Assembly (NCBI GenBank): GCA_024641705.1
Contig: JAHECO010000019.1
Location: 1 to 64,000, forward strand
From: Candidatus Kryptoniota bacterium
GTDB taxonomy: Bacteria > Bacteroidota > Ignavibacteria > Kryptoniales > JAKASW01
Direction: 5' to 3'
DNA length: 64,000 bases
The translations under genes and the position numbers were made by a program. The notes beneath the pieces are model-generated. The model was given only the letters and a program-made list of their open reading frames with translations, did no database searches and had not been told where the DNA came from. Of this stretch, positions 19,474-30,923 are shown piece after piece (position 1 is the stretch's first letter; every line of letters starts with the position of its first letter).

Positions 19474-20610
19474 CTAACGCAGAGAACGTCTGAAAGTGTA
19501 GACGCTGAGAGAAAGCACACCCGCGCCGATTACGAAGAGGGCCAGCGTTTGAGGCCAGAGGTCCGCGAAACCGTCTCCCTTCAGAAAGATCCCCCTTACA
19601 ATTTCCATGAAATACCTGACAGGGATCAGGTAGGTCACGTACTGGAAGAATTTCGGCATGTTCTCGATCGGGAAAATGAATCCCGACAGGATGAGCATAG
19701 GCATCATTACAAAAAACTGGGCCGTCATCGTCGCTTGTTGTTGCGTCTTGGATATCGAGGATACGAAAAGTCCCAGACCCAATGCCACCATGACGAAAAG
19801 AAGACTCAGGATCAACAAGGTCGCAACATTTCCCCGCAGCGGCACATGGAAGATATAGACGCTGACGAAAAGCACCAGTAGCACTTCCACGATGCCGATC
19901 AGGGTAAACGGTATCATTTTGCCAAGTATGAATTCCAGATCGTGGAGCGGCGTCACGACGATCTGCTCAATTGTCCCGTTTTCCTTTTCTTTGACTATCG
20001 CCAGTGAAGTTATTGTCAGCGTTATGACCATCAACACCATGACTAGGACGGCGGGCACCATGAAGTTTACGCTTTTCAGGTCGGGGTTGTACCATGCTCT
20101 CGACTGCGCGACGACCTGCGGAAGATCGTCGGGGCTTTTGATCAAGTTGAATTTCTCCGCCCTTTGGACGACTATGTTGCGGGCGTAACTGAGCGCGATG
20201 ACGCTTGCGTAACTCAGTCCGATCCCGCTCGTGTTGGAGTCCGACCCGTCGGCGATAATTGCGAGCTGCGGACTCTTCCCCGCCAGGATATCGCGGCCGA
20301 AATGCACCGGTACCACGAGCGCCATGCCTGCCTTTCCGCTCTTCAGGTAATGGTCAATGTCATTGACGTCGTTTATGTAGGCAACCGGGATGAAGTAATC
20401 CGAGCTGGTAAAATGGGACACGAGCTCCCTGCTTTGTTTTGTATTATCCATGTCACAAATGACGATCGGGATGTTGCGCACATCCACGGTAGCGGCATAA
20501 CCGAGGAGCACGAGTTGGAGGACCGGCGCCACGAAAAGCATCCCGAACATCCGTTTATCACGCCTGAGCTGGAGGAATTCTTTCTCCACGACCCGCAATA
20601 TCCTTTTCAT
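19474..20610 (-). CDS. ABC-2 type exporter permease (YbhR-like)
   Basis: A 378-residue membrane protein with one N-terminal span (about residues 22-42), a large extracytoplasmic domain and five spans in the C-terminal half, the ABC2_membrane_3 layout. It starts MKRILRVVEKEFLQLRRDKR, typical of the YbhS/YbhR permeases, and has the cytoplasmic KEKENGTIEQIVVTPL segment that contacts the ATPase. Its gene begins 1 base after the stop of the other permease gene, so the two presumably form a heterodimer. It is the last gene of the tetR-hlyD-ABC-tolC-ABC-permease-permease unit. Substrate unknown; relatives export drugs or other small amphipathic compounds. Confidence 0.88.
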   Translation of the reverse strand: MKRILRVVEKEFLQLRRDKRMFGMLFVAPVLQLVLLGYAATVDVRNIPIVICDMDNTKQSRELVSHFTSSDYFIPVAYINDVNDIDHYLKSGKAGMALVVPVHFGRDILAGKSPQLAIIADGSDSNTSGIGLSYASVIALSYARNIVVQRAEKFNLIKSPDDLPQVVAQSRAWYNPDLKSVNFMVPAVLVMVLMVITLTITSLAIVKEKENGTIEQIVVTPLHDLEFILGKMIPFTLIGIVEVLLVLFVSVYIFHVPLRGNVATLLILSLLFVMVALGLGLFVSSISKTQQQATMTAQFFVMMPMLILSGFIFPIENMPKFFQYVTYLIPVRYFMEIVRGIFLKGDGFADLWPQTLALFVIGAGVLSLSVYTFRRSLR

Positions 20611-20611
20611 C

Positions 20612-21742
20612 TCAGAATCCCTTCCTGCTCAGCCTTATCGAGGCAAACGCCGGCACCGCAATCGCGAAGATTATGAGCGGATAAATCTGGTTGTAAATAT
20701 CGGCAAACCCCGATCCCTTAAGCATAATTGCCCTGAGTGCGGAAAGGAAATATCTTCCCGGGAGGAGGTAGGTGACGAGCTGAAGAGGAAGGGCCATACT
20801 GTTTATGGGGAAGACGAATCCGGACAATATGAAGGTCGGGAGTATCGAGAGGAGACTCGCTACCAGGAAAGCCATTTGTTGCGAACTGGTAAAGGTCGAG
20901 ATCAATACCCCGATACTCAGGGTCCCGATAAGGAAAATCACTATCGTGACCGCGAGAAGCAGAAGGCTCCCCCGTATGGTAACATCGAACAGGAGAAAGC
21001 TGGCACCGATAACCAGGACAGACGCCACAAGCGATAATACAAAATAGAGTGTGGTCTTCCCGAGTATGATCTCAAGTGAAGTTGTCGGGGCCATACTGAT
21101 ATGTTCAAGAGTCCCCCGCTCCTTTTCCCGAACTACCGATATGGCGGGCGTCACGATACTCAGTATCATGAGAATGAAGCCTATCAGCCCGGGGATGAGG
21201 AACTTCGCACTCTTCAGCTCCGGGTTGTAATAGACTCTCGGCCTGTAATCGATCCCGGCTGGGGCCATGCGGAACCCTTTACGGTTCATGTAGCTCGCCG
21301 TAAGGTTCGCGGAATAATTCTGGAGCACTCCGTCCACATAGCCCATTATGATGGTGGCGGTGTTCGAGTTGGCCCCGTCCAGAATCACCTGGACATCGAC
21401 CCGCTTGCCCAGCAGGAGCTGCTTCGCGTAGTCGCGGGGTATCACGAGAACCGCCTTGCTTCTGTCATCCTGAATGAACTTGTCGATCGCGGTCTCTCCA
21501 GGTACGACACCGGCAAAATCGAAATACTCGGTGCTGAAGAATTTCTGCTGGAGCTGCCGGCTCTCCTTGGTCATCGACTCGTCAAGGACTCCAAGCCGGA
21601 CATGTTTGACGTCAAAGTTCAGCGCGTACCCGTAAAGTAGGAGCATGAGAGTCGGGACGAGAATGATCGCGGACAAGGACAGCTTGTCGCGTTTCAGCTG
21701 TCGAAACTCCTTCAGATAAATCGTGGCGATGTTCTCAAACAT
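20612..21742 (-). CDS. ABC-2 type exporter permease (YbhS-like)
   Basis: A 376-residue protein with the same plan as its downstream neighbour: a start of the form IATIYLKEFRQLKRDKL, one N-terminal span, a periplasmic domain and five C-terminal spans. The ATPase-contact segment is VREKERGTLEHISMAPT. It overlaps the upstream ATPase gene by 8 bases. It should form the heterodimeric membrane channel of the exporter. Sequence divergence between the two permeases is large, which fits a fixed two-subunit complex and not a recent duplication. Confidence 0.88.
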   Translation of the reverse strand: MFENIATIYLKEFRQLKRDKLSLSAIILVPTLMLLLYGYALNFDVKHVRLGVLDESMTKESRQLQQKFFSTEYFDFAGVVPGETAIDKFIQDDRSKAVLVIPRDYAKQLLLGKRVDVQVILDGANSNTATIIMGYVDGVLQNYSANLTASYMNRKGFRMAPAGIDYRPRVYYNPELKSAKFLIPGLIGFILMILSIVTPAISVVREKERGTLEHISMAPTTSLEIILGKTTLYFVLSLVASVLVIGASFLLFDVTIRGSLLLLAVTIVIFLIGTLSIGVLISTFTSSQQMAFLVASLLSILPTFILSGFVFPINSMALPLQLVTYLLPGRYFLSALRAIMLKGSGFADIYNQIYPLIIFAIAVPAFASIRLSRKGF

Positions 21743-22673
21743 TCCCGCTGCCTCTCTTGGGCCGGGTTTCCTTTACGAATATGTCCTCCAGTGTGGGGGC
21801 TGCTTTCGTAATTTGAAAGCCGGAAATCCCGGCTTTTTTCAGGGCGGCTTCGATGGAGGATACGGGTTCTCCGGTTTCCGCGTAGACGTGGACTGTGTTC
21901 CCGTAGATCGCCGCGTCGGTGATCCAGGATTCCTGCTCGAGCGTGTTGAATACATTCAGCGGCTTAGCGGTCTCTATTTCAAACAGTGGAAGATCCGAGA
22001 ACTCCTTGCGGATTCCCTCCGGCGAGCCGTTTACCACTATCTTTCCGAGGTGCATCATGATGATGTTCTCACAGAATTCCGCCTCCTCGAGATGGTGGGT
22101 CGTCACGATTATCGTGGCTCCCTCACCCGACAGCTGGCCGATAAGCTGCCAGAATTTGTCCCGAACCACCGGGTCCACGCCGCTCGTTGGTTCATCCAGA
22201 AAGACGATCTTCGGATGATGAAGAACGGCGCATCCCAGCGCCAGCCGCTGACGCCAGCCTAGCGGGAGATCCCTCGTCAACAGGTCCTCCCTCCCCTTCA
22301 GGTCGGCAACCTCTATCACCCATGAGAACCTTTCCCTCAGCTTGTTGTTGCCGAGGCCGTAAACGCCGCCGTAGAATTCTATATTCTCCTTGACGGTCAA
22401 ATCGCTGTACAGAGAGAATCTTTGAGACATGTATCCAATGTTCTCCCGCACTTTCTCGGGATGTTCAGCCACGTCAAAGCCCGCGACCTCGACCTTGCCA
22501 TCCGTCGGCTTGGTCAGTCCGCACAGCATCTTTATCGTCGTCGACTTCCCTGCGCCGTTGGCGCCGATGAAGCCTACAACCTTTCCCTCTTCGACCTCGA
22601 AAGAGATCGAGTCGACTGCCGTGAAGCTGCCGAACTTCTTTGTAAGTGCTGCGGCTTTGATCGCGTAAGACAT
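21735..22673 (-). CDS. ABC transporter ATPase (YbhF second-half type)
   Basis: A 312-residue ATPase. Walker A is GANGAGKST (37-45) and Walker B leads to FLDEPTSGVDP. The signature is LPLGWRQRLAL instead of LSGGQ, the same degenerate form found in the second ATPase domain of E. coli YbhF. The C-terminal 80 residues form the extra domain seen in exporter ATPases of this group. With the separate ATPase at 24013-24933 it would rebuild a YbhF-like pair that powers the two permeases. The gene ends inside the first permease gene and starts 2 bases after tolC. Confidence 0.88.
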   Translation of the reverse strand: MSYAIKAAALTKKFGSFTAVDSISFEVEEGKVVGFIGANGAGKSTTIKMLCGLTKPTDGKVEVAGFDVAEHPEKVRENIGYMSQRFSLYSDLTVKENIEFYGGVYGLGNNKLRERFSWVIEVADLKGREDLLTRDLPLGWRQRLALGCAVLHHPKIVFLDEPTSGVDPVVRDKFWQLIGQLSGEGATIIVTTHHLEEAEFCENIIMMHLGKIVVNGSPEGIRKEFSDLPLFEIETAKPLNVFNTLEQESWITDAAIYGNTVHVYAETGEPVSSIEAALKKAGISGFQITKAAPTLEDIFVKETRPKRGSGNV

Positions 22674-22675
22674 GC

Positions 22676-23998
22676 CTATATTCTTCCGACGGCCTTTTCC
22701 ATGTTGACCCTTGCAATTTCCAGATCGGTAAGCGCCTGCGAGTAGTTCAACTTGGCCTGCAAGAGTGCGACTTCTGCGTCCATAAGGTCGGTATTGGTGA
22801 CAAGCCCGACTTTGAACTTCTGTTCCGAGATTCTGTAGCTCTCCTCGGCATCCTTCACTGTTGTTTCTGCGACTCTTATCCTGTCCCTCGCCTGTTTGAA
22901 GTTCAGGTAGCTCTGTGTGACGTCGAGATAGACTCCATCGGCAGCCTGCTGCTCCGCAAGCCGGGCCTGTTGGCTCTGCGCCTTTGCCTCGTCAATCTTC
23001 GACTGTGTCTGCCCCCAGTTCCAGATCGGCAGGCTCACTACGACGCTGGCGTCCCAGGTATTCTTGAAAACATCCTGCGTGGGAAAGATCCTCTGGTTCG
23101 GCTTCTGGTAATAGAAATTGCCGACTACGGACACCTGTGGCAGATAGGCTCCCCAGGCGGCCGCGGCTGCCGCTCCAGCCGCTTGCGCTCTCAGCTTAAG
23201 CGAGTGGAGTTCGCTGCGGTTCTCCAGGGCGTCCTTCAGAAGATCCGCCACTGCCGGCAGCGTCGTGTCTCCTGCCTGCGGTTGCGACTCTATTTTGTAG
23301 TCAGTATTAAGCGGCACGCCGAGGACGTTGTTCAAAGCTACCTCAGCCAACCTGAGGTTATTCTCCGCATTCAAGAGCATCAGCTCGCTGTTTGAGACCT
23401 GTACCTTGACGCTTAGCACATCGCTTTGAGTGAGCATGCCCTGTGCCAGCATGTTCTCAGCCTGTTGATAATGCGACTTGGTTCTGTCCAGATTCTCCTG
23501 CATGAATTCCCTGGCATTGAGAGCGTTGTAAACGTTCCAGTATGCTGTTGCGATCTGGACCTTCAGGTTCGACTTGTCGGTCTTTGCATCGAACCGCGCC
23601 GCCTCGGCGTTGTCTTTGGCGGCTTTCGACGCATTCGAGAGTTGAAAACCCGTGAAGATAGGCTGCTGGACTGATAGCTCAAGGTTATAATTGTCGAAAA
23701 CGTTCGGCGATATCTGGAACGAATTTCCGACGCCCGGAATCGTCACCGGCAGCGTGAGTACCGAAGGCGGTATCGTGGAGAGGCGCGTGTATCTTCCCTG
23801 GAACGACAATCCGGCCCACCGGCTCGAACTAACCTCATGGTATTTCGCCTCCGCTGAGACAGCGCTAAGTTCCGAAATCTTCAGCGTCTTCGAGTTCTCC
23901 AGGCCCACCTTGAGAGCGTCCTGCAGCGTCAACGGAACCTGCGCGTGCGCAGAGATTGCTATGCATAATATCCCGAACATGACTATGATTTTCCGCAC
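22676..23998 (-). CDS. TolC-family outer membrane efflux protein
   Basis: A 440-residue protein with a signal peptide (about 1-19, ending AHA) and two OEP repeats, each a long coiled-coil helical pair with short strands, as in TolC. The internal duplication can be read in the paired segments ending NNVLGVPLNT and in the final helices rich in alanine and glutamine. It should form the trimeric outer-membrane duct of the exporter. The start is GTG with a strong GGAGG 8 bases upstream. Its position between the two ATPase genes is unusual, since tolC-type genes mostly sit at one end of such operons. Confidence 0.9.
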   Translation of the reverse strand: MRKIIVMFGILCIAISAHAQVPLTLQDALKVGLENSKTLKISELSAVSAEAKYHEVSSSRWAGLSFQGRYTRLSTIPPSVLTLPVTIPGVGNSFQISPNVFDNYNLELSVQQPIFTGFQLSNASKAAKDNAEAARFDAKTDKSNLKVQIATAYWNVYNALNAREFMQENLDRTKSHYQQAENMLAQGMLTQSDVLSVKVQVSNSELMLLNAENNLRLAEVALNNVLGVPLNTDYKIESQPQAGDTTLPAVADLLKDALENRSELHSLKLRAQAAGAAAAAAWGAYLPQVSVVGNFYYQKPNQRIFPTQDVFKNTWDASVVVSLPIWNWGQTQSKIDEAKAQSQQARLAEQQAADGVYLDVTQSYLNFKQARDRIRVAETTVKDAEESYRISEQKFKVGLVTNTDLMDAEVALLQAKLNYSQALTDLEIARVNMEKAVGRI

Positions 23999-24012
23999 GA
24001 TTGTTTCCTCCT

Positions 24013-24933
24013 TTACGACTTTATCAAACTTGCAAAAACATTGTCCAGAGATGCACTTATCTCCTTCATCTCCGCTTTCTCATCAACTTTACTTCTTACG
24101 GCATTCAAAACGGAACCGGCCTTGTCCCGTGACTCGGCCTGGGCCACGAAAGAAATCCTGTCGCCGAGCACGACCAGGTTTTCCGCGAAGTCGAAATCCG
24201 AGACAACCCTGAACGCCTCCCTCAGATTGCGGGAATGCACTTCGAAGACATGCAACGGTACCTCCGATATGAGCCCCGGCACGCTATTATATCGCAACAA
24301 TTTTCCGCCGTTAAAGAGAGCAACTTTGCTGCATCTTTCAGCCTCGTTGAGATACGGCGTCGCGACAAGTATCGTCATTCGATTCCTGAGGAAGGAAGCG
24401 AGTATGAGCCATAACTCCCTTCTGGAGACCGGGTCAACTCCGGTTGTGGGTTCGTCGAGTATCAATATTTTTGGCTGGTGGATGACGGCGCAACACACTC
24501 CCAGCTTCTGCCTCATCCCGCCCGATAGTTGGTCAGCGAGCCTCGACTTGAATTCGTTAAGCCTGGCAAACTGAAGTAGGCGCTCTCCACGCTCTTTCCA
24601 GTCCCTCACTTTCCTTATTTTCCCGAAGAATTCTATGTTCTCCCAAACGGTAAGATCGCCATACGCCTGACTCATCTGCGAAAGGTATCCGATGTCCTCC
24701 TTCAGTTCACCGCGATTCTTCTCGAAAGTCTTACCATTAACGAGAAGGCTCCCGCTTGTCGGCTCGAGCGCTCCGGACAACATCCTGAGAAAAGTCGTCT
24801 TGCCGGCACCGTCGGGGCCGATGATGCCGACCAGCTCCCCTTCCTCGACTGTCATGGAGACATTGTCCACGGCAGTCAGGTTGCCGTACTTCTTCGTTAT
24901 ATCTTTTGCCTGTATGATCATAGTTTTCGGCAT
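24013..24933 (-). CDS. ABC transporter ATPase (YbhF first-half type)
   Basis: A 306-residue ATPase with Walker A GPDGAGKTT (39-47), a canonical signature LSGGMRQKLG (about 138-147) and Walker B followed by LDEPTTGVDP. The GPDGAGKTT form is that of the first ATPase domain of YbhF, so this gene and the one at 21735-22673 look like a YbhF split into two proteins. The first ATG is used; an in-frame ATG four codons later is possible. A 65-base spacer with heptad repeats separates it from the hlyD-type gene upstream. Confidence 0.88.
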   Translation of the reverse strand: MPKTMIIQAKDITKKYGNLTAVDNVSMTVEEGELVGIIGPDGAGKTTFLRMLSGALEPTSGSLLVNGKTFEKNRGELKEDIGYLSQMSQAYGDLTVWENIEFFGKIRKVRDWKERGERLLQFARLNEFKSRLADQLSGGMRQKLGVCCAVIHQPKILILDEPTTGVDPVSRRELWLILASFLRNRMTILVATPYLNEAERCSKVALFNGGKLLRYNSVPGLISEVPLHVFEVHSRNLREAFRVVSDFDFAENLVVLGDRISFVAQAESRDKAGSVLNAVRSKVDEKAEMKEISASLDNVFASLIKS

Positions 24934-24940
24934 TCCACGT

Positions 24941-25001
24941 TCAGAAATCAGCAGTCGACGGCTGGTAGTCTTGACAGCTGATCGCTGATCGCTGGCTGCT
25001 A
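24941..25001. repeat. Heptad-repeat spacer with inverted halves
   Basis: GCTGATC occurs twice in tandem (24977-24983 and 24984-24990) followed by GCTGGCT (24991-24997). The left part of the same spacer carries the opposite orientation, with TCAGAAA and TCAGCAG at 24941-24954, so the two halves can pair as an imperfect hairpin. The element ends at the stop codon of the hlyD-type gene. It lies between two genes that should be cotranscribed. Confidence 0.5.
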
Positions 25002-25961
25002 TTTAGTATAGATACTCGCGTCAGCCGGCAACCCTGCCTTGAGGTATCCTTCAGGGTTAGCTATCGCCAGCTTGACAGCGAACACGAGTTTAATCCTGTC
25101 CTGCTTTGTCTCCACATTCTTCGGCGTGAACTCCGCTGTAGGGGAAATATAGATAACCTTCCCGTCGAACGGATGTTTGGGCATTCCGTCCAGCAGCACC
25201 TTAGCATCGTCTCCGAGCCTTACACGGGCAAGATCCGTCTCGCTCACGTACACAGTCATCTTCATGGTACGCAGGTCGGACACTGTGTAGACAGGCGTCC
25301 CGACGGTAGCGAAATCTCCCACTTCGAGGAGTCTCTCCAATACAGTTCCTGTGATAGGGGAAGTGACATATGAATGCTCGAGTGCAATCTTCGCGGCGTC
25401 AAGGCCCGCCTGTGCCTGTTGCACCTGGGCCGCAGCGGCACGAATCTCCTGTGGACGGGCAAACTGCTGCAGCTTGGCAAGCGTTTGCTGCGCCGACTTG
25501 AGCTGCGCACCGGCCACTTCGTACTGCGCTCTGGCTGCATCCATCTGTGCCTGCGAGACGCTATGGCCCGAGAAAAGCTTCTCTGTGCGGTTGTAGGCAA
25601 GTTGTGCGAGATTGAAGTTGGCCTGCGCTTGCTTCACTCCCTCTTCGGCAACCTTCAAATCTTCGCTCCTGGCCCCCTTTACGAGGAGGTCGTACTGTTG
25701 CTGGGCCATGACGAGTGTCGCCTGGGCTTGATTCACCTGCTGGACGAGAGATTCGTGGTCGGTTTCGGCAAGCGTGTCTCCCGCCTTGACCTGCGCCCCT
25801 TCCTCGTAGTTCATCCGTATGACTCTTCCGGGAACCTGGGCAGCGATCGAGCTTTCCGTCGCTTCTATAGTTCCGGTCGCGGTGACGGCCTTGTCGTTCA
25901 AATTGCCGCCGCAACCGAAAGTCAGAAATGCGAACAAAAGAAAAACTGCGGACCTTTTCAT
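24999..25961 (-). CDS. HlyD-family periplasmic adaptor (YbhG-like)
   Basis: A 320-residue membrane-fusion protein. The N-terminus MKRSAVFLLFAFLTFGCGGN is a signal that may be lipidated at the cysteine, although TFGC is a poor lipobox. Residues about 35-75 and 190-230 form the split biotinyl-lipoyl domain, separated by a long alanine/glutamine-rich coiled coil, and the rest is the beta-barrel domain. It should link the ABC permeases with TolC across the periplasm. The ATG at 25961 is chosen because the longer frame has no signal and overlaps tetR; this start lies 1 base after the tetR stop. Confidence 0.88.
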   Translation of the reverse strand: MKRSAVFLLFAFLTFGCGGNLNDKAVTATGTIEATESSIAAQVPGRVIRMNYEEGAQVKAGDTLAETDHESLVQQVNQAQATLVMAQQQYDLLVKGARSEDLKVAEEGVKQAQANFNLAQLAYNRTEKLFSGHSVSQAQMDAARAQYEVAGAQLKSAQQTLAKLQQFARPQEIRAAAAQVQQAQAGLDAAKIALEHSYVTSPITGTVLERLLEVGDFATVGTPVYTVSDLRTMKMTVYVSETDLARVRLGDDAKVLLDGMPKHPFDGKVIYISPTAEFTPKNVETKQDRIKLVFAVKLAIANPEGYLKAGLPADASIYTK

Positions 25962-25962
25962 C

Positions 25963-26559
25963 TTATCTTTTTCTTCCTTTCTCGGTAAGAATACCTTCGG
26001 TGAACATCCTGAATACCTGCTTGGGCACTTCCGATTCCGATAGCGCATGCTTGGAGAGGAAATCCGTTTTCATCAGTTCCCTCACGACGCCGACGTAGGC
26101 CGTGGTGAATACCACTGCATCGATGTCCTTCCGTACCCAACCGTTCTTCTGGCCGTCGGCGAATATCTTTTGCCAACCCACAGCCAGTCGTTCCTGAATT
26201 ATCGTATCGACCTCCTTAAAAAGCGCGGGCGCATTCAACCGGACTTCGATAAGAATTCTCTGCCATTGCTCGTTGATGTGGGTTCCCACAATCTCGGAGA
26301 TGGCCTCTATTTTATTGACGGACGACTCCTTAAGGGATTGTATTCTCTCGAAAGCTCCTGTGAGCGTATTCATCTTGTCCAGTACGACTTCCCTGAGTAT
26401 CTCTTCCTTGCTCGGAAACAGCTTGTAGACCGTCTTCTTACTTATCCCGAGTTCCGCTGCTATCTCGTCTATAGTCACCTTCTTGAACCCGTGCCGCGCG
26501 AATTTCGCGTAGGAGAGCTCGAGGATTGCCTGTCGGAGGTTGTCTATGCCTGGCACCAT
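25963..26559 (-). CDS. TetR-family transcriptional regulator of the exporter operon
   Basis: From the ATG at 26559 this is a 198-residue protein: an N-terminal helix-turn-helix (VTIDEIAAELGISKKTVYKLF) followed by a helical ligand domain of unknown specificity. It is the first gene of the exporter unit and lies 1 base before hlyD. Upstream in-frame starts exist (GTG at 26631, ATG at 26589), but the ATG at 26559 fits the family N-terminus and lies 7 bases after a predicted -10 box. A perfect inverted repeat covers the promoter, so it probably represses itself and the exporter, as CecR does for ybhGFSR in E. coli. Confidence 0.85.
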   Translation of the reverse strand: MVPGIDNLRQAILELSYAKFARHGFKKVTIDEIAAELGISKKTVYKLFPSKEEILREVVLDKMNTLTGAFERIQSLKESSVNKIEAISEIVGTHINEQWQRILIEVRLNAPALFKEVDTIIQERLAVGWQKIFADGQKNGWVRKDIDAVVFTTAYVGVVRELMKTDFLSKHALSESEVPKQVFRMFTEGILTEKGRKR

Positions 26560-26589
26560 GGAAACCAAATTAGTGTTTTCAGTTTCCAT
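26558..26589. promoter_or_regulatory. Candidate TetR operator
   Basis: ATGGAAAC (26558-26565) and GTTTCCAT (26582-26589) are perfect 8-base inverted arms with a 16-base spacer. The left arm in the transcription sense follows the -35 box directly, the -10 box lies in the spacer, and the right arm contains the tetR start codon. This is a classic position for autorepression. Confidence 0.55.
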
Positions 26590-26595
26590 TGTCAA
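26567..26595 (-). promoter_or_regulatory. Promoter of tetR and the exporter operon, predicted leaderless
   Basis: On the minus strand TTGACA (26595-26590), 17 bases, TAATTT (26572-26567). The -10 box ends 7 bases before the ATG at 26559, so the mRNA would begin at or one base before the start codon. Confidence 0.55.
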
Positions 26596-26730
26596 GGGTT
26601 GCCACGCGAGATACTGCTTTCCCGACTTCACAGAATAAGCCGCTGATTATCGGTACCCTTTAGCAGGGGGAAGACGAATATGAGACCGGCTCTTGCCGGC
26701 AGTGTAGCGGACGATCGGGAGGCTGTGAAA

Positions 26731-28704
26731 TCAGGCTCGCCCACGAAGCTGAAGAAGGCTCTTCGCGATGATCTCGAGGTCGAGCCAGACGGACTGGTTC
26801 CGTGCGTAATAAACGTAAAGCTTCTCGACCTCTTCAGGAGAGAGGGATTGCCCCCGGTTAAGTTGAACGACGCCCGTAATCCCAATCTTTCCGAACAGCT
26901 CCTCACTCCCCTGCGGATGATATTCAGACCGGCCCACAACCGAAAGTTCGCCGGACAGCACCCTCGGCAGTTTCCGGAAGACTCGCCGCAAAGCCCCGTC
27001 CTTTCCGGTCAGAGCAGCCGGCCAGAGGAGAGCGAGTCCGGCGATGGCGAACAATACATCGAACATTCGCTTCGCCCGGATATTCCTGCTGCGGTGCAGG
27101 CTGTAATCGATCTCAACAAGAGGGATATCCGACAATCCGTCTACGTAGGTCTTTCCTATGATCACGTCCATCGTGTCGGGGACGAGCTTGAAGTTGACCG
27201 CAGGATTCTCCACACTGGCGACCGCCTGCAGAACCTGCGAATACGAGATCCGTCCCGATGCGAACACGACATCATCGATCTTCTTCTCTTTGATCAATCT
27301 CGGAAGTTCCGACAGCGTTCCGACGACCTTGATCCCCAGCAACCTTGTCTCCGACGGCGCATCCTCCGCGACTATTCCCACAATATCGTAGCCCATCGAT
27401 ACACGTCCCCGGATCTTTTTGATGAGCTCCACGGCGCGTTGGTCCATTCCGACGACCAGGGTTTTCCTCCCGAAAAACGGATGACGCGAGCTGCCGACCG
27501 ATGTCTTCAGCTGATACAGCAGCCTGTACCCTGGAAGGACCGCGAGCATGACCGCACTCGCCGAAAGGACCATCAACCTGGAAAAAGCGAACTCCTTGAA
27601 GAAGAAGGTCAGCGAAGAGAAGAACAGGAATGTCAGAAAACCTGTGAGTATCGACAGCCGGAAGGAATACTTATTCTCGCCGTATATCCCAAGCGACATC
27701 CCGAACAGGGCGAAAACTATTGCAGGTGCAATATAGAAGTAAGGGCGTCCGTACGCGGGGATCGCGTAGATCCTGTGCGATTTCAGAAACTCGCCGATGA
27801 ACATTGCCGCCACTATTGCAGAGAAATCCACGAAAACCGGCCACGTCTTCCCCAGCCACAGGAAGACTCGGCGCATCTGGCGGTTGACGAGTATAGCTCC
27901 TCTCAGTGCCCGTGACAAGAAAGTGTTCACACCATACCTCTTTTCAACGAACACGCCCATAGCGCGATAGAATTCGTAAGTCTGGTTTATGTTGCTGCGC
28001 CTGGTACTTTCCCCTTTGAAATGAATGGCCGTCGTTCTCGGTGTGTAAAAGACCTTGTATCCGGCATTCTTGATCTTGTAGCAAAGATCTATATCTTCCC
28101 CGTACATGAAGTAATCTTCATCGAAGCCCCCGACCTTGTCGAACACGCGCCGCGGGATGAACATGAAGCTCCCGCCTATGGCGTCGACTTCGTGTTCTTC
28201 ATCTGGATTGAGATAAGTGAGGTTGTACCTCCCGAACATCTTCGTCCGCGGGAAAAGGGTGCTCAATCCGGAGATCTTTGTAAATGCGACCCAGGGCGTC
28301 GGGAATCCTCTTCTGCATGTTTTCTGAAGCGTGCCGTCGCCGTTGAGCACTTTGCAGCTTGCGGCCCCTGCTTCCGGGTGAACCGCGGAGAACGCAAGCA
28401 TCTCCTTGACCGTATTCTCTTCTACGACGGCATCCGGATTTATCAGAAGGAGATACTCGCCCGACGATATCTTGACACCCTGGTTGTTCGCCTTGCCGAA
28501 ACCGACGTTCACATTGTTTTCGATCAGCCTCACTGCCGGGTAGTTCTTCTTGATTACCTCGACAGTATCATCGTCCGAAGAATTGTCCACAACGATTATT
28601 TCAGAGTCTATCCCGATCAACGCACGATTTAGAGACGTGATCAGGTTCTCCAGGAACCCCCGCACATTGAAGCTCACAATTACAACGGAGACCTGCTTCT
28701 TCAA
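26731..28704 (-). CDS. GT2 glycosyltransferase fused to a core-deleted sugar-transferase (WbaP-type) half
   Basis: A 657-residue protein. Residues 1 to about 235 are a GT2 domain of the rhamnosyltransferase type (VSVVIVSFNV at the start, an INPDAVV metal-site region, GFDEDYFMYGEDIDLCYK). Then come four or five membrane spans (about 290-400) and a nucleotide-binding-like domain (KTLVVGMDQRAVELI). The last 120 residues start as a polyprenyl-phosphate sugar transferase (AKRMFDVLFAIAGLALLWP) but jump to the distal part (LSGELSVVGRSEY). The catalytic middle with its PGPV, KFRSM and DE residues is absent. The intact enzyme encoded at 29505-30923 shows what is missing. The GT2 half may work; the C-terminal half cannot be a normal phosphosugar transferase. 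It is the last gene of the polysaccharide operon. Confidence 0.75.
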   Translation of the reverse strand: MKKQVSVVIVSFNVRGFLENLITSLNRALIGIDSEIIVVDNSSDDDTVEVIKKNYPAVRLIENNVNVGFGKANNQGVKISSGEYLLLINPDAVVEENTVKEMLAFSAVHPEAGAASCKVLNGDGTLQKTCRRGFPTPWVAFTKISGLSTLFPRTKMFGRYNLTYLNPDEEHEVDAIGGSFMFIPRRVFDKVGGFDEDYFMYGEDIDLCYKIKNAGYKVFYTPRTTAIHFKGESTRRSNINQTYEFYRAMGVFVEKRYGVNTFLSRALRGAILVNRQMRRVFLWLGKTWPVFVDFSAIVAAMFIGEFLKSHRIYAIPAYGRPYFYIAPAIVFALFGMSLGIYGENKYSFRLSILTGFLTFLFFSSLTFFFKEFAFSRLMVLSASAVMLAVLPGYRLLYQLKTSVGSSRHPFFGRKTLVVGMDQRAVELIKKIRGRVSMGYDIVGIVAEDAPSETRLLGIKVVGTLSELPRLIKEKKIDDVVFASGRISYSQVLQAVASVENPAVNFKLVPDTMDVIIGKTYVDGLSDIPLVEIDYSLHRSRNIRAKRMFDVLFAIAGLALLWPAALTGKDGALRRVFRKLPRVLSGELSVVGRSEYHPQGSEELFGKIGITGVVQLNRGQSLSPEEVEKLYVYYARNQSVWLDLEIIAKSLLQLRGRA

Positions 28705-29447
28705 TGCTTCCTCAAGCCGAGAAACCTCAGAGCCCTTCCTATGCCGAGTATCAGAACGATCATGACCCCTTCGAACACTATCTTCTTGGACATCTTGCTG
28801 GTCCCCACCCGGCGTTCAGTGAAGACGATCGGCACCTCGACTATCCTGAATCCTTTGCGGTAAGCGCGGACGTTCATTTCGACCTGGAACGCGTAGCCGT
28901 TCGACCTTATTGAATCCAGATCTATCGATTTAAGGACCTCGATTTTAAAGGCCTTGAACCCGCTCGTCATGTCGTTGACAGGAACACCGGTGACGATCCT
29001 GGCATACAAGTTAGCGCCATAGCTGAGGAGCAATCGCTTCATGGGCCAGTTGAGAACCGAAATCCCGGAGGCGTACCGGGAACCGATTGCGACATCGGCG
29101 TGATCGACGAGTGCTTTGCAGAAGCGAGGTATTTCACCCGGCTCGTGAGAGAGATCCGCGTCCATTTCCACGACAAAGTCGTATCCATTCTCGATCGCAT
29201 ATCTGAAACCCGCCACGTACGCGGTGCCCAATCCTTCTTTGCCTTTGCGGCACACGATGCGCACGCGGCTGTCGTTCTGCGAAATGCTTTCGACAATCTT
29301 CTGAGTCCCATCCGGCGAGTTATCATCCACCACCAGTACATGCGTGTTTGGGCAGGCGCCGAGGACTTTCGGAATTACAGCCCCGATATTTTCGGCCTCG
29401 TTGTAGGTCGGGATTATCACCAGAACCTTTTTATCGTTTTCAGTCAT
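28701..29447 (-). CDS. Polyprenol-phosphate mannosyl/glycosyltransferase (DPM1-like GT2)
   Basis: About 248 residues from the ATG at 29447. The GT2 motifs are VIIPTYNEAENI, VVDDNSPDGT and EMDADLSHEP, all in the dolichol-phosphate-mannose-synthase form, and FTERRVGTSKMS matches the C-terminal end of that group. It has a short hydrophobic tail and no long membrane domain. It probably moves a sugar from a nucleotide carrier to polyprenyl phosphate at the inner face of the membrane. The ATG at 29447 is preferred because GGTGA precedes it; an ATG at 29492 would add 15 residues. Its 3' end overlaps the fusion gene by four bases. Confidence 0.87.
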   Translation of the reverse strand: MTENDKKVLVIIPTYNEAENIGAVIPKVLGACPNTHVLVVDDNSPDGTQKIVESISQNDSRVRIVCRKGKEGLGTAYVAGFRYAIENGYDFVVEMDADLSHEPGEIPRFCKALVDHADVAIGSRYASGISVLNWPMKRLLLSYGANLYARIVTGVPVNDMTSGFKAFKIEVLKSIDLDSIRSNGYAFQVEMNVRAYRKGFRIVEVPIVFTERRVGTSKMSKKIVFEGVMIVLILGIGRALRFLGLRKH

Positions 29448-29504
29448 CAGGAAACTCACCCTCGCGGTATTGATATTGGGCGGGAGAGACATCGGGATTT
29501 CTCG

Positions 29505-30923
29505 TCACGTGTGCCCCTTCCCGAGCAGGACATGAAAAATTGTCCAAAAGAGTATCTGAAAATCAAGTCTCAGCGACATGTTTTCAATGTAATATAGATC
29601 GTACTGCAAATCTATTTTGACGTCCTCAATACTCTCGTCGTACTTGTACTTGACTCTCGACAGTCCGGTCAGTCCCGGCTTCACTTTATACCTCCTCTTA
29701 TAGAGAGGAATTTCTTTGGAGAGTTTCTCTACGAAGTATGGCCGTTCAGGCCGGGGACCGACGAGACTCATCTCACCCTTCAGTACGTTGAGGAATTGAG
29801 GAGTCTCATCAAGATGAGATTTTCTGAGAAATCTTCCGACTCCCGTGACGCGCGGGTCGTTTTTCGATGCCCACACGGGGCCGGTCTGCTTCTCCGCGTC
29901 GACGCGCATCGACCGGAATTTGAGAAGTGTAAAGTCCTTCTGATCTCTTCCGACCCTCACCTGCCTATAGATAACAGGCCCCTTTGAATCGAGCTTGATT
30001 GCCGCAGCCAGCAGGAGCCAGAGAGGGAGCCCGACGACGAGCGAAATCCCGGAAACGCCGATATCCATGAGGCGTTTGGTCGCGACCTGCCACTGTTGCA
30101 TGAGTTGCGGGACGACGTCGATCAGCGGGAAGCCGTAAAGTTGAGATGTCCTGGCCTGCCCGGCGATTGAGTCGTAAAGATCGGGGACAATCTTTATCGA
30201 TGCCTCCAGGCCGTTTACACCGGTTATGATACTGTAGAGATTCTCCTTTTCATTTTCTTCAAGGGCAATGATGATTTCCCTGGCCTGGTGTTTTTCCAGC
30301 GTTTCGTTGAGGTCCGACACCCCCGACAGTATCGGCGCGGGCAAACCATCCGGGTTTCCCGTTTCCCCGACCCTGACAAAGCCGAGCGGGTCGTAGCCGA
30401 GGCTCCTGTACTTTTTTGCAAGATCATAAACCGAGCGGGCTCTCTCGCCGGAGCCTACGATTATCGCCTTGCGCAACCCGATGCCTCTCATCAGCAGCTG
30501 TTTCTGAAGAGTCCTGAACGCGACTCTCACAATCGAGACGAAGAAGACTATGAGGCACCAATAGAACATGATGAACATACGGAGATGGGGTATTCTTCCA
30601 GACGCCGCGTCGTCAAAGAATATTGCAAAGAAGAGGATAAACACGCCGAGCGTGACAACTTTCAGGACGGCTATTATCTCATCCAGCCGGGAGCTCAGGT
30701 AAGTGAATTTGTACATCCCCCAGAACCAGAACAGGAACATCATGAAGAGCGATAGGAGAATGACCGGGCCCCAGAAATCGGGAACCGCCATCACATGGAA
30801 AAGGCCGCTGCGGATACGTATGTAATAGTAAATTGCATTTGCAGAGACCAAGGATACGGAGTCCGCGATGAGGAGGAAGAGGAGGTTCCCTCCTCTTGCG
30901 GTCAGTTTCTCGACACTTCCCAT
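29505..30923 (-). CDS. Undecaprenyl-phosphate phosphosugar transferase (WbaP/WcaJ type)
   Basis: About 472 residues from the ATG at 30923. Four or five membrane spans fill residues 10-130, a nucleotide-binding-like domain (KAIIVGSGERARSVYDLA) follows, and the C-terminal domain is an intact bacterial sugar transferase: DSKGPVIYRQ, KFRSM near residue 335, HLDETPQ with the catalytic acid pair region, and SLVGPRPERPYF. It should start repeat-unit assembly by moving a sugar-1-phosphate onto undecaprenyl phosphate. The longer open frame upstream encodes a cysteine-rich nonsense N-terminus and overlaps the previous gene, so it was not used. The gene overlaps the preceding GT2 gene by 22 bases. Confidence 0.9.
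   Translation of the reverse strand: MGSVEKLTARGGNLLFLLIADSVSLVSANAIYYYIRIRSGLFHVMAVPDFWGPVILLSLFMMFLFWFWGMYKFTYLSSRLDEIIAVLKVVTLGVFILFFAIFFDDAASGRIPHLRMFIMFYWCLIVFFVSIVRVAFRTLQKQLLMRGIGLRKAIIVGSGERARSVYDLAKKYRSLGYDPLGFVRVGETGNPDGLPAPILSGVSDLNETLEKHQAREIIIALEENEKENLYSIITGVNGLEASIKIVPDLYDSIAGQARTSQLYGFPLIDVVPQLMQQWQVATKRLMDIGVSGISLVVGLPLWLLLAAAIKLDSKGPVIYRQVRVGRDQKDFTLLKFRSMRVDAEKQTGPVWASKNDPRVTGVGRFLRKSHLDETPQFLNVLKGEMSLVGPRPERPYFVEKLSKEIPLYKRRYKVKPGLTGLSRVKYKYDESIEDVKIDLQYDLYYIENMSLRLDFQILFWTIFHVLLGKGHT

Follow-up and report, generated by a model that had tools for sequence, protein, structure and literature searches.

The locus and its product

The window, the whole stretch of 64,000 nucleotides from a Candidatus Kryptoniota bacterium analysed here, carries on its minus strand an open reading frame at 26731-28704 that encodes 657 residues, has a TTG start and zero internal stops, and is kept in frame, as an earlier note on this DNA had said. 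The start of the gene overlaps the stop of the upstream gene in the four bases TTGA. Its product is confirmed as a GT2 glycosyltransferase joined to a large monotopic phosphoglycosyl transferase (Lg-PGT) without an active site. The features are listed below.

26731..28704, minus strand: whole fusion gene, 657 aa (open reading frame, TTG start)
27850..28698, minus strand: GT2 glycosyltransferase domain, residues 3-285 (Pfam, alignment and fold search)
27493..27849, minus strand: four-transmembrane-helix bundle of the Lg-PGT type, residues 286-404
27175..27474, minus strand: Rossmann-like domain PF13727 (the 'DUF' of WbaP), residues 411-510
27097..27174, minus strand: residues 511-536, which align with the last part of the DUF and with the beta-hairpin that joins WbaP dimers (low model confidence; passages of PMC10942596)
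27010..27090, minus strand: re-entrant membrane helix, residues 539-565, with K545-R546, D549 and P562 (D-x12-P; residue roles from sections of PMC12802240 and PMC6133551)
26953..27018, minus strand: excision site, residues 563-584, 22 residues against 82 in the paralogue, which there holds the K59, R88, D93 and E94 equivalents
26740..26952, minus strand: retained distal PGT tail, residues 585-655, with Y633 and D642 (PglC D168 equivalent)
28701..29492, minus strand: DPM1/polyprenyl-phosphate-glycosyltransferase-like GT2, 263 aa, the most widespread neighbour
29505..30923, minus strand: intact Lg-PGT, 472 aa, candidate partner of the fusion

Pfam places PF00535 (GT2) at residues 6-134 of the fusion product (77.5 bits, cut-off 23.3) and CoA_binding_3 (PF13727) at 351-509, and of Bac_transf (PF02397) it recovers the distal portion alone (profile positions 94-175 of 179, 41.3 bits, cut-off 27). 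TIGR03025 is matched by residues 292-565 at 140.7 bits, below its cut-off of 295.55, and none of the NCBIfam cut-offs is reached. From residue 286 onward the order of elements is that of an Lg-PGT, with the four-helix bundle and the PF13727 domain ahead of the PGT domain. In the GT2 domain NPD (89-91) and ED (203-204) are invariant among 53 aligned members; D91, E203 and D204 are presumably its metal-binding and catalytic sites. The paralogue at 29505-30923 matches Bac_transf profile positions 1-178 and is a complete Lg-PGT, and the third PF02397 match of the genome, on contig C91, is complete as well.

Loss of the catalytic segment and retention of the membrane determinants

Between the proline of the re-entrant helix and the glycine of GELS the fusion has 22 residues (P562 to G585) and the paralogue 82 (P300 to G383), in line with the roughly 60 extra residues that the earlier note had counted in the latter. 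The stretch lost from the fusion holds KGPV, KFRSM, LRK and DE in the paralogue; KFRSM and DE had been placed there correctly, and the first motif had been misread as PGPV. The earlier note also had the helix running straight into LSGELS, which needs correction, as about 20 residues (AALTGKDGALRRVFRKLPRV) lie between ...LLWP and LSGELS. A second, short loss follows the missing GPRP motif, with paralogue positions 399-401 gapped in 138/138 members and 396-398 in 133-137.

To map individual residues, 172 distinct C-terminal halves of fusions (from a pool of 183 members, 11 short or cut ones being excluded) were aligned with 51 intact PGTs. Residue roles in PglC were taken from section 8 of PMC12802240, which supplied the active-site list (K59, R88, D93, E94, R111), and from parts of PMC6133551, and PglC numbering was paired with that of the paralogue through motifs and motif spacing. 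The two classes of residue behave very differently. Active-site equivalents are found in almost none of the fusion halves (K59 0/172, R88 8/172, D93 2/172, E94 1/172, R111 11/172) vs nearly all intact PGTs (K59 50/51, R88 48/51, D93 51/51, E94 48/51, R111 48/51), and some of the few matches among fusions stand at the edges of alignment gaps and may be accidental. Helix and lipid residues are kept in the fusion halves (K7 162/172, R8 148/172, D11 162/172, P24 160/172, D168 165/172) as they are in the intact PGTs (K7 50/51, R8 50/51, D11 51/51, P24 50/51, D168 51/51). The fusion at 26731-28704 itself has all five helix-lipid residues, with D-x12-P and the C-terminal Asp in place, and each of its five active-site positions is either lost or occupied by another residue.

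The DE pair is absent from 172/172 aligned halves, and neither DExPQ nor KFRSM occurs anywhere in them. Because the gap is common to every aligned relative, it lies far beyond chance. We looked for an orthologue with an intact core in the same place, deliberately fetching the longest frames of the phylum search, and found none among the 172 halves. A longer remnant of the lost segment survives in WOR-3 fusions (P24-to-G spacing 48) and in families f32, f33 and f48 (42-54 for all of these together, vs 62-94 in intact PGTs); the active-site pair is absent from these members despite the longer remnant. These alignments support the view of the earlier note that the half is no longer an enzyme, and a C-terminal half of this kind would be incapable of PGT activity. 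We rate the fusion as a pseudoenzyme branch of the Lg-PGTs joined to a GT2 domain.

Structure models

The remnant folds confidently both in a model of the whole protein (mean pLDDT 82.9) and in a model of the C-terminal half alone (82.5), the latter having been proposed as a check in the earlier note. The half was modelled alone since, when the whole model was used for a fold search, GT2 structures took up the entire list. Both models show the re-entrant helix unbroken in their DSSP strings, although a kink would be expected there, an observation that speaks against the docking platform proposed below. A search with a profile of the half recovered WbaP (8t53) at E 3.5e-29, the core appearing as an insertion in WbaP, and the model of the half matches WbaP with a Foldseek E of 3.4e-11 and, against 8t53, a VIA Z of 13.4 over 298 residues; the rmsd of 15.0 means that the domains are probably placed differently. 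The PGT fold itself is recognisable with its core removed, as residues 252-371 of the half superpose on PglC (8g1n) with Z 11.4, 117 aligned residues, rmsd 3.0 and 27% identity. The GT2 domain resembles 6p61 (Z 23.5, 185 aligned, rmsd 1.9) and the WrtF fucosyltransferase (Z about 21.5).

Distribution, age and selection

A search for the same architecture and gap in other genomes, suggested by the earlier note, found full-length relatives in 87/100 genomes, the fusion's own genome counted, at the criterion of a single match from residue 13 or earlier to residue 648 or later; outside the 87, several relatives are cut by contig ends. Among 247 genomes drawn from the phylum, 100 hold a near-full-length match, one that starts no later than residue 13 and extends to residue 640 or beyond, and in other genomes of the phylum the match is limited to a GT2 form some 400 residues long. 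Ignavibacteria, WOR-3, Stahlbacteria, Saprospiraceae and Chitinophagaceae are among the relatives by name. The fusion design is old and has been kept across a large bacterial group.

In a tree of C-terminal halves from which the core columns had been removed, all 52 sampled fusions fall on one side of one branch with support 100/100, with a root that could move under wider sampling since the PGTs came from fusion- or GT2-bearing genomes only. The PGTs attach beside the f32, f33 and f48 fusions. These families, like WOR-3, retain more of the lost segment than other fusions do, and the picture fits a history of a single fusion event, loss of the active site and then further trimming, down to members with neither helix nor tail. 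Such members are L073 (4983-6641) and L075 (3694-5385), which end after PF13727, have lost the re-entrant helix and the PGT tail, and have a DPM1-like gene directly upstream. The tails of Chitinophagia-, Saprospiria- and Rhodothermales-like members no longer have a PGT-like score (most 0-7 bits).

For the tail, comparisons within the genus give a dN/dS of 0.035-0.038 (three of the six closest pairs had a computable dS), and for the GT2 domain a similar one, 0.022-0.047 (four of six pairs), with dS near or past saturation in most pairs. Few pairs were usable, and in these the tail is under purifying selection, so the earlier claim that the half is retained held up. A recent deletion, a decaying pseudogene half or an assembly error, for which the missing segment itself is the whole case, can be dismissed given the architecture shared by 87/100 and 100/247 genomes in many independent assemblies, the one old branch and the low dN/dS.

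Gene neighbourhood

Loci of the Ignavibacteria type have the order PGT, often one extra gene, DPM1-like GT2 and fusion, with an intact PGT linked in 20/20. At L047 the extra gene is a DegT aminotransferase, and accA and an EPSP synthase gene follow the fusion. Of the full-length loci with at least 3.3 kb of upstream DNA, 30/49 have both an intact PGT and a DPM1-like gene upstream and 19/49 have neither; in a further set of nine loci both are close to the fusion in 4/9 (families f32, f33 and f48). At other loci recR or a 2-oxoacid dehydrogenase E2 gene adjoins the fusion. Calditrichota-like and Fibrobacter loci have a DPM1-like gene and no PGT, which makes the DPM1-like gene, and not the PGT, the most widespread neighbour. 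At least one intact PGT is present somewhere in each of the 16 genomes with a fusion or a GT2 that were tested, beside a base rate of 9/14 in control genomes only; the 16-genome set takes in the part-architecture loci L051, L073, L075, L097, L099 and L104.

In raw counts over 92 of the 129 loci, a PGT-like tail is present in 45/54 PGT-linked vs 7/38 unlinked loci. After correction for kinship, linkage and tail conservation were no longer associated across 6 independent pairs (mean 0.8 for, 0.3 against, median p 1), and linkage was therefore rejected as proof of a partnership. The earlier note had proposed a scaffold or lipid-binding partner of the real transferase two genes away. Its lipid-binding part is favoured by the selective retention of lipid and membrane determinants. 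Its partnership part finds only partial support: linkage is complete in Ignavibacteria-type loci and occurs in other lineages too, and against it stand the 19/49 loci with no PGT nearby and the negative corrected test.

A possible role at the membrane

Domain order, active-site loss, selective retention, age, a common branch and linkage are the observations to be explained, and the simplest mechanism that we can offer is that the ancient pseudo-PGT is now a platform for docking to membrane and polyprenol, which keeps the GT2 domain next to its lipid-linked acceptor. We give this reading a probability of about 60%. On this reading an Lg-PGT became joined behind a GT2 domain and then lost the nucleotide-sugar-binding segment, the Asp-Glu pair of catalysis included. 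What was kept comprises the four-helix bundle, the Rossmann-like domain, the C-terminal Asp and a re-entrant helix that still has its Lys-Arg pair and D-x12-P. The pseudo-PGT half may seat in the inner leaflet and grip or orient the undecaprenyl-linked sugar that a live PGT has made, and the GT2 domain, held at the membrane surface and presented with this acceptor, would add the next sugar. Lipid binding by the pseudo-PGT half is suggested, through homology, by what the equivalent residues do in PglC, where, according to parts of PMC6133551, activity but not the re-entrant fold depends on Pro24, a residue also associated with the binding of polyprenol, Arg8 contacts a lipid headgroup and Lys7 pairs with a C-terminal Asp. 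The fusions keep these features and have lost the catalytic dyad and the residues that orient the substrate. The short GT2 forms of about 400 residues in parts of the phylum count against the docking platform, and since the PGT-like tail score is lost in some lineages and L073 and L075 have neither helix nor tail, such a platform would not always be needed.

Two main rivals were considered, a bare anchor and a heteromer formed with the live PGT. As an anchor, the pseudo-PGT would simply tether the GT2 domain, and the kept residues would maintain fold and re-entrant topology, neither lipid nor partner being recognised. Pro24 and the Lys-Arg pair are also among the residues that set the re-entrant topology of PglC (portions of PMC6133551); their conservation would also follow from simple anchoring in the membrane, and the dropping of the tail in some lineages would suit a tether. 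However, four transmembrane helices would suffice for that purpose, yet the helix proline (160/172) and the C-terminal Asp (165/172) stay, and within the genus selection on the tail is purifying. We consider the anchor an unlikely account.

In the second rival the pseudo-PGT would pair with the upstream intact PGT through the four-helix bundle and PF13727, either as a two-step initiation complex or to modulate the PGT. Sections of PMC10942596 describe a WbaP dimer joined by the PF13727 domain, and EpsZ, another Lg-PGT, is reportedly activated by a partner protein (passages of PMC12802240), so partner control of the Lg-PGT fold has a precedent. The PGT and DPM1-like genes upstream in 30/49 loci and near the fusion in 4/9 are consistent with such pairing, and the dimer-hairpin segment (511-536), which has pLDDT below 50 in the monomer model of the whole protein, is gap-free in most fusion members. 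On the other hand, its sequence differs from that of PGTs. The loci with no PGT nearby include WOR-3, whose tails are nevertheless well kept, and the association of linkage with tail disappears in independent pairs. A heterodimer of the fusion with the neighbouring PGT is the least supported step, and we hold it, like the hetero-oligomer as a whole, to be doubtful.

It is less likely still that PF13727 binds uridine nucleotides and tunes the GT2 domain as a nucleotide sensor. UMP, UDP and UTP stabilise the WbaP domain (parts of PMC10942596), but the GxG turn has mostly decayed in the fusions, its second Gly being kept in 27/138 of them vs 26/33 PGTs, and we regard a sensor as improbable.

A broader reading can be put forward tentatively. 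A phylum-wide class of GT2 enzymes might read its lipid-linked acceptor through a gutted PGT, an initiating enzyme stripped of its catalytic and nucleotide-sugar part that has kept its polyprenol grip, is joined to the next enzyme of the pathway and could pair with the live initiating PGT. The hand-over between the first two steps at the membrane would then take place within a single assembly.

Relation to known enzymes

The closest known arrangement compared is that of WbaP (8t53; an Lg-PGT of the TIGR03025/TIGR03022 type), in which four-helix bundle, PF13727, re-entrant helix and PGT tail follow one another as they do in the fusion; the fusion differs in its N-terminal GT2 domain, in having no catalytic segment and in its sub-threshold TIGR03025 score. 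PglC (8g1n, 8e37), a small monotopic PGT, shares the fold of the superposed 117 residues, whereas its active-site residues have no equivalents in the fusion; of the features of monotopic PGTs (PF02397), the fusions thus have the re-entrant helix with D-x12-P and the C-terminal Asp and do not have the DE pair with K59, R88 and R111. Bi-PGTs, described in parts of PMC10942596 as PGTs that carry fused functional domains at the N- or C-terminus, likewise have a second domain on the PGT chain, but they have a working PGT catalytic domain; the PGT half of the fusion is dead, so that it is not bifunctional in the Bi-PGT sense. GT2 inverting glycosyltransferases (PF00535; 6p61, WrtF) share the fold and acidic residues of the N-terminal domain and differ from the fusion in its C-terminal pseudo-PGT.

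We found no description of a GT2 domain fused to an inactive PGT in the literature searched, and an earlier one may exist. The fusion is a natural experiment in which the parts of a monotopic PGT that serve catalysis are separated from those that handle membrane and lipid, and it offers a clean system for asking if the re-entrant helix binds polyprenol alone. It also provides a defined case in which to test how the second enzyme in the making of a lipid-linked glycan may dock to its acceptor or to the first enzyme. For annotation it is a hazard, as such fusions can pass the PF02397 cut-off (41.3 vs 27 bits) and be miscounted as initiating sugar transferases.

Variant forms and other observations

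Several loci depart from the common form. In WOR-3 (L051, CP070802.1, 4971-7043) one in-frame TGA divides the fusion into a GT2 half and a pseudo-PGT half, which may reflect a sequencing error, a true split or decay. In L247 and L248 (genomes G159 and G132) the short GT2 form of about 400 residues stands beside an E2 acyltransferase gene and is apparently the same gene minus most of the pseudo-PGT half. Fibrobacter loci L104, L105 and L106 have GT2 proteins of about 550 residues that adjoin DPM1-like genes and may be a further decayed form; the C-terminal 250 residues of the L104 protein matched no Pfam family. The fusion of L244 (G202) lies inside an open frame of about 1,490 codons from stop to stop, a possible further N-terminal fusion, and in L216 (G319) the Rossmann-like domain is interrupted by a long low-complexity insertion rich in Gly, Ala and Pro. 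In the window, an efflux cluster at 19474-26631 (TetR, HlyD, ABC and outer-membrane factor, named by eye) follows directly after the fusion on the same strand, and parts of this cluster also adjoin the fusion in the close relatives L034, L035, L038 and L039.
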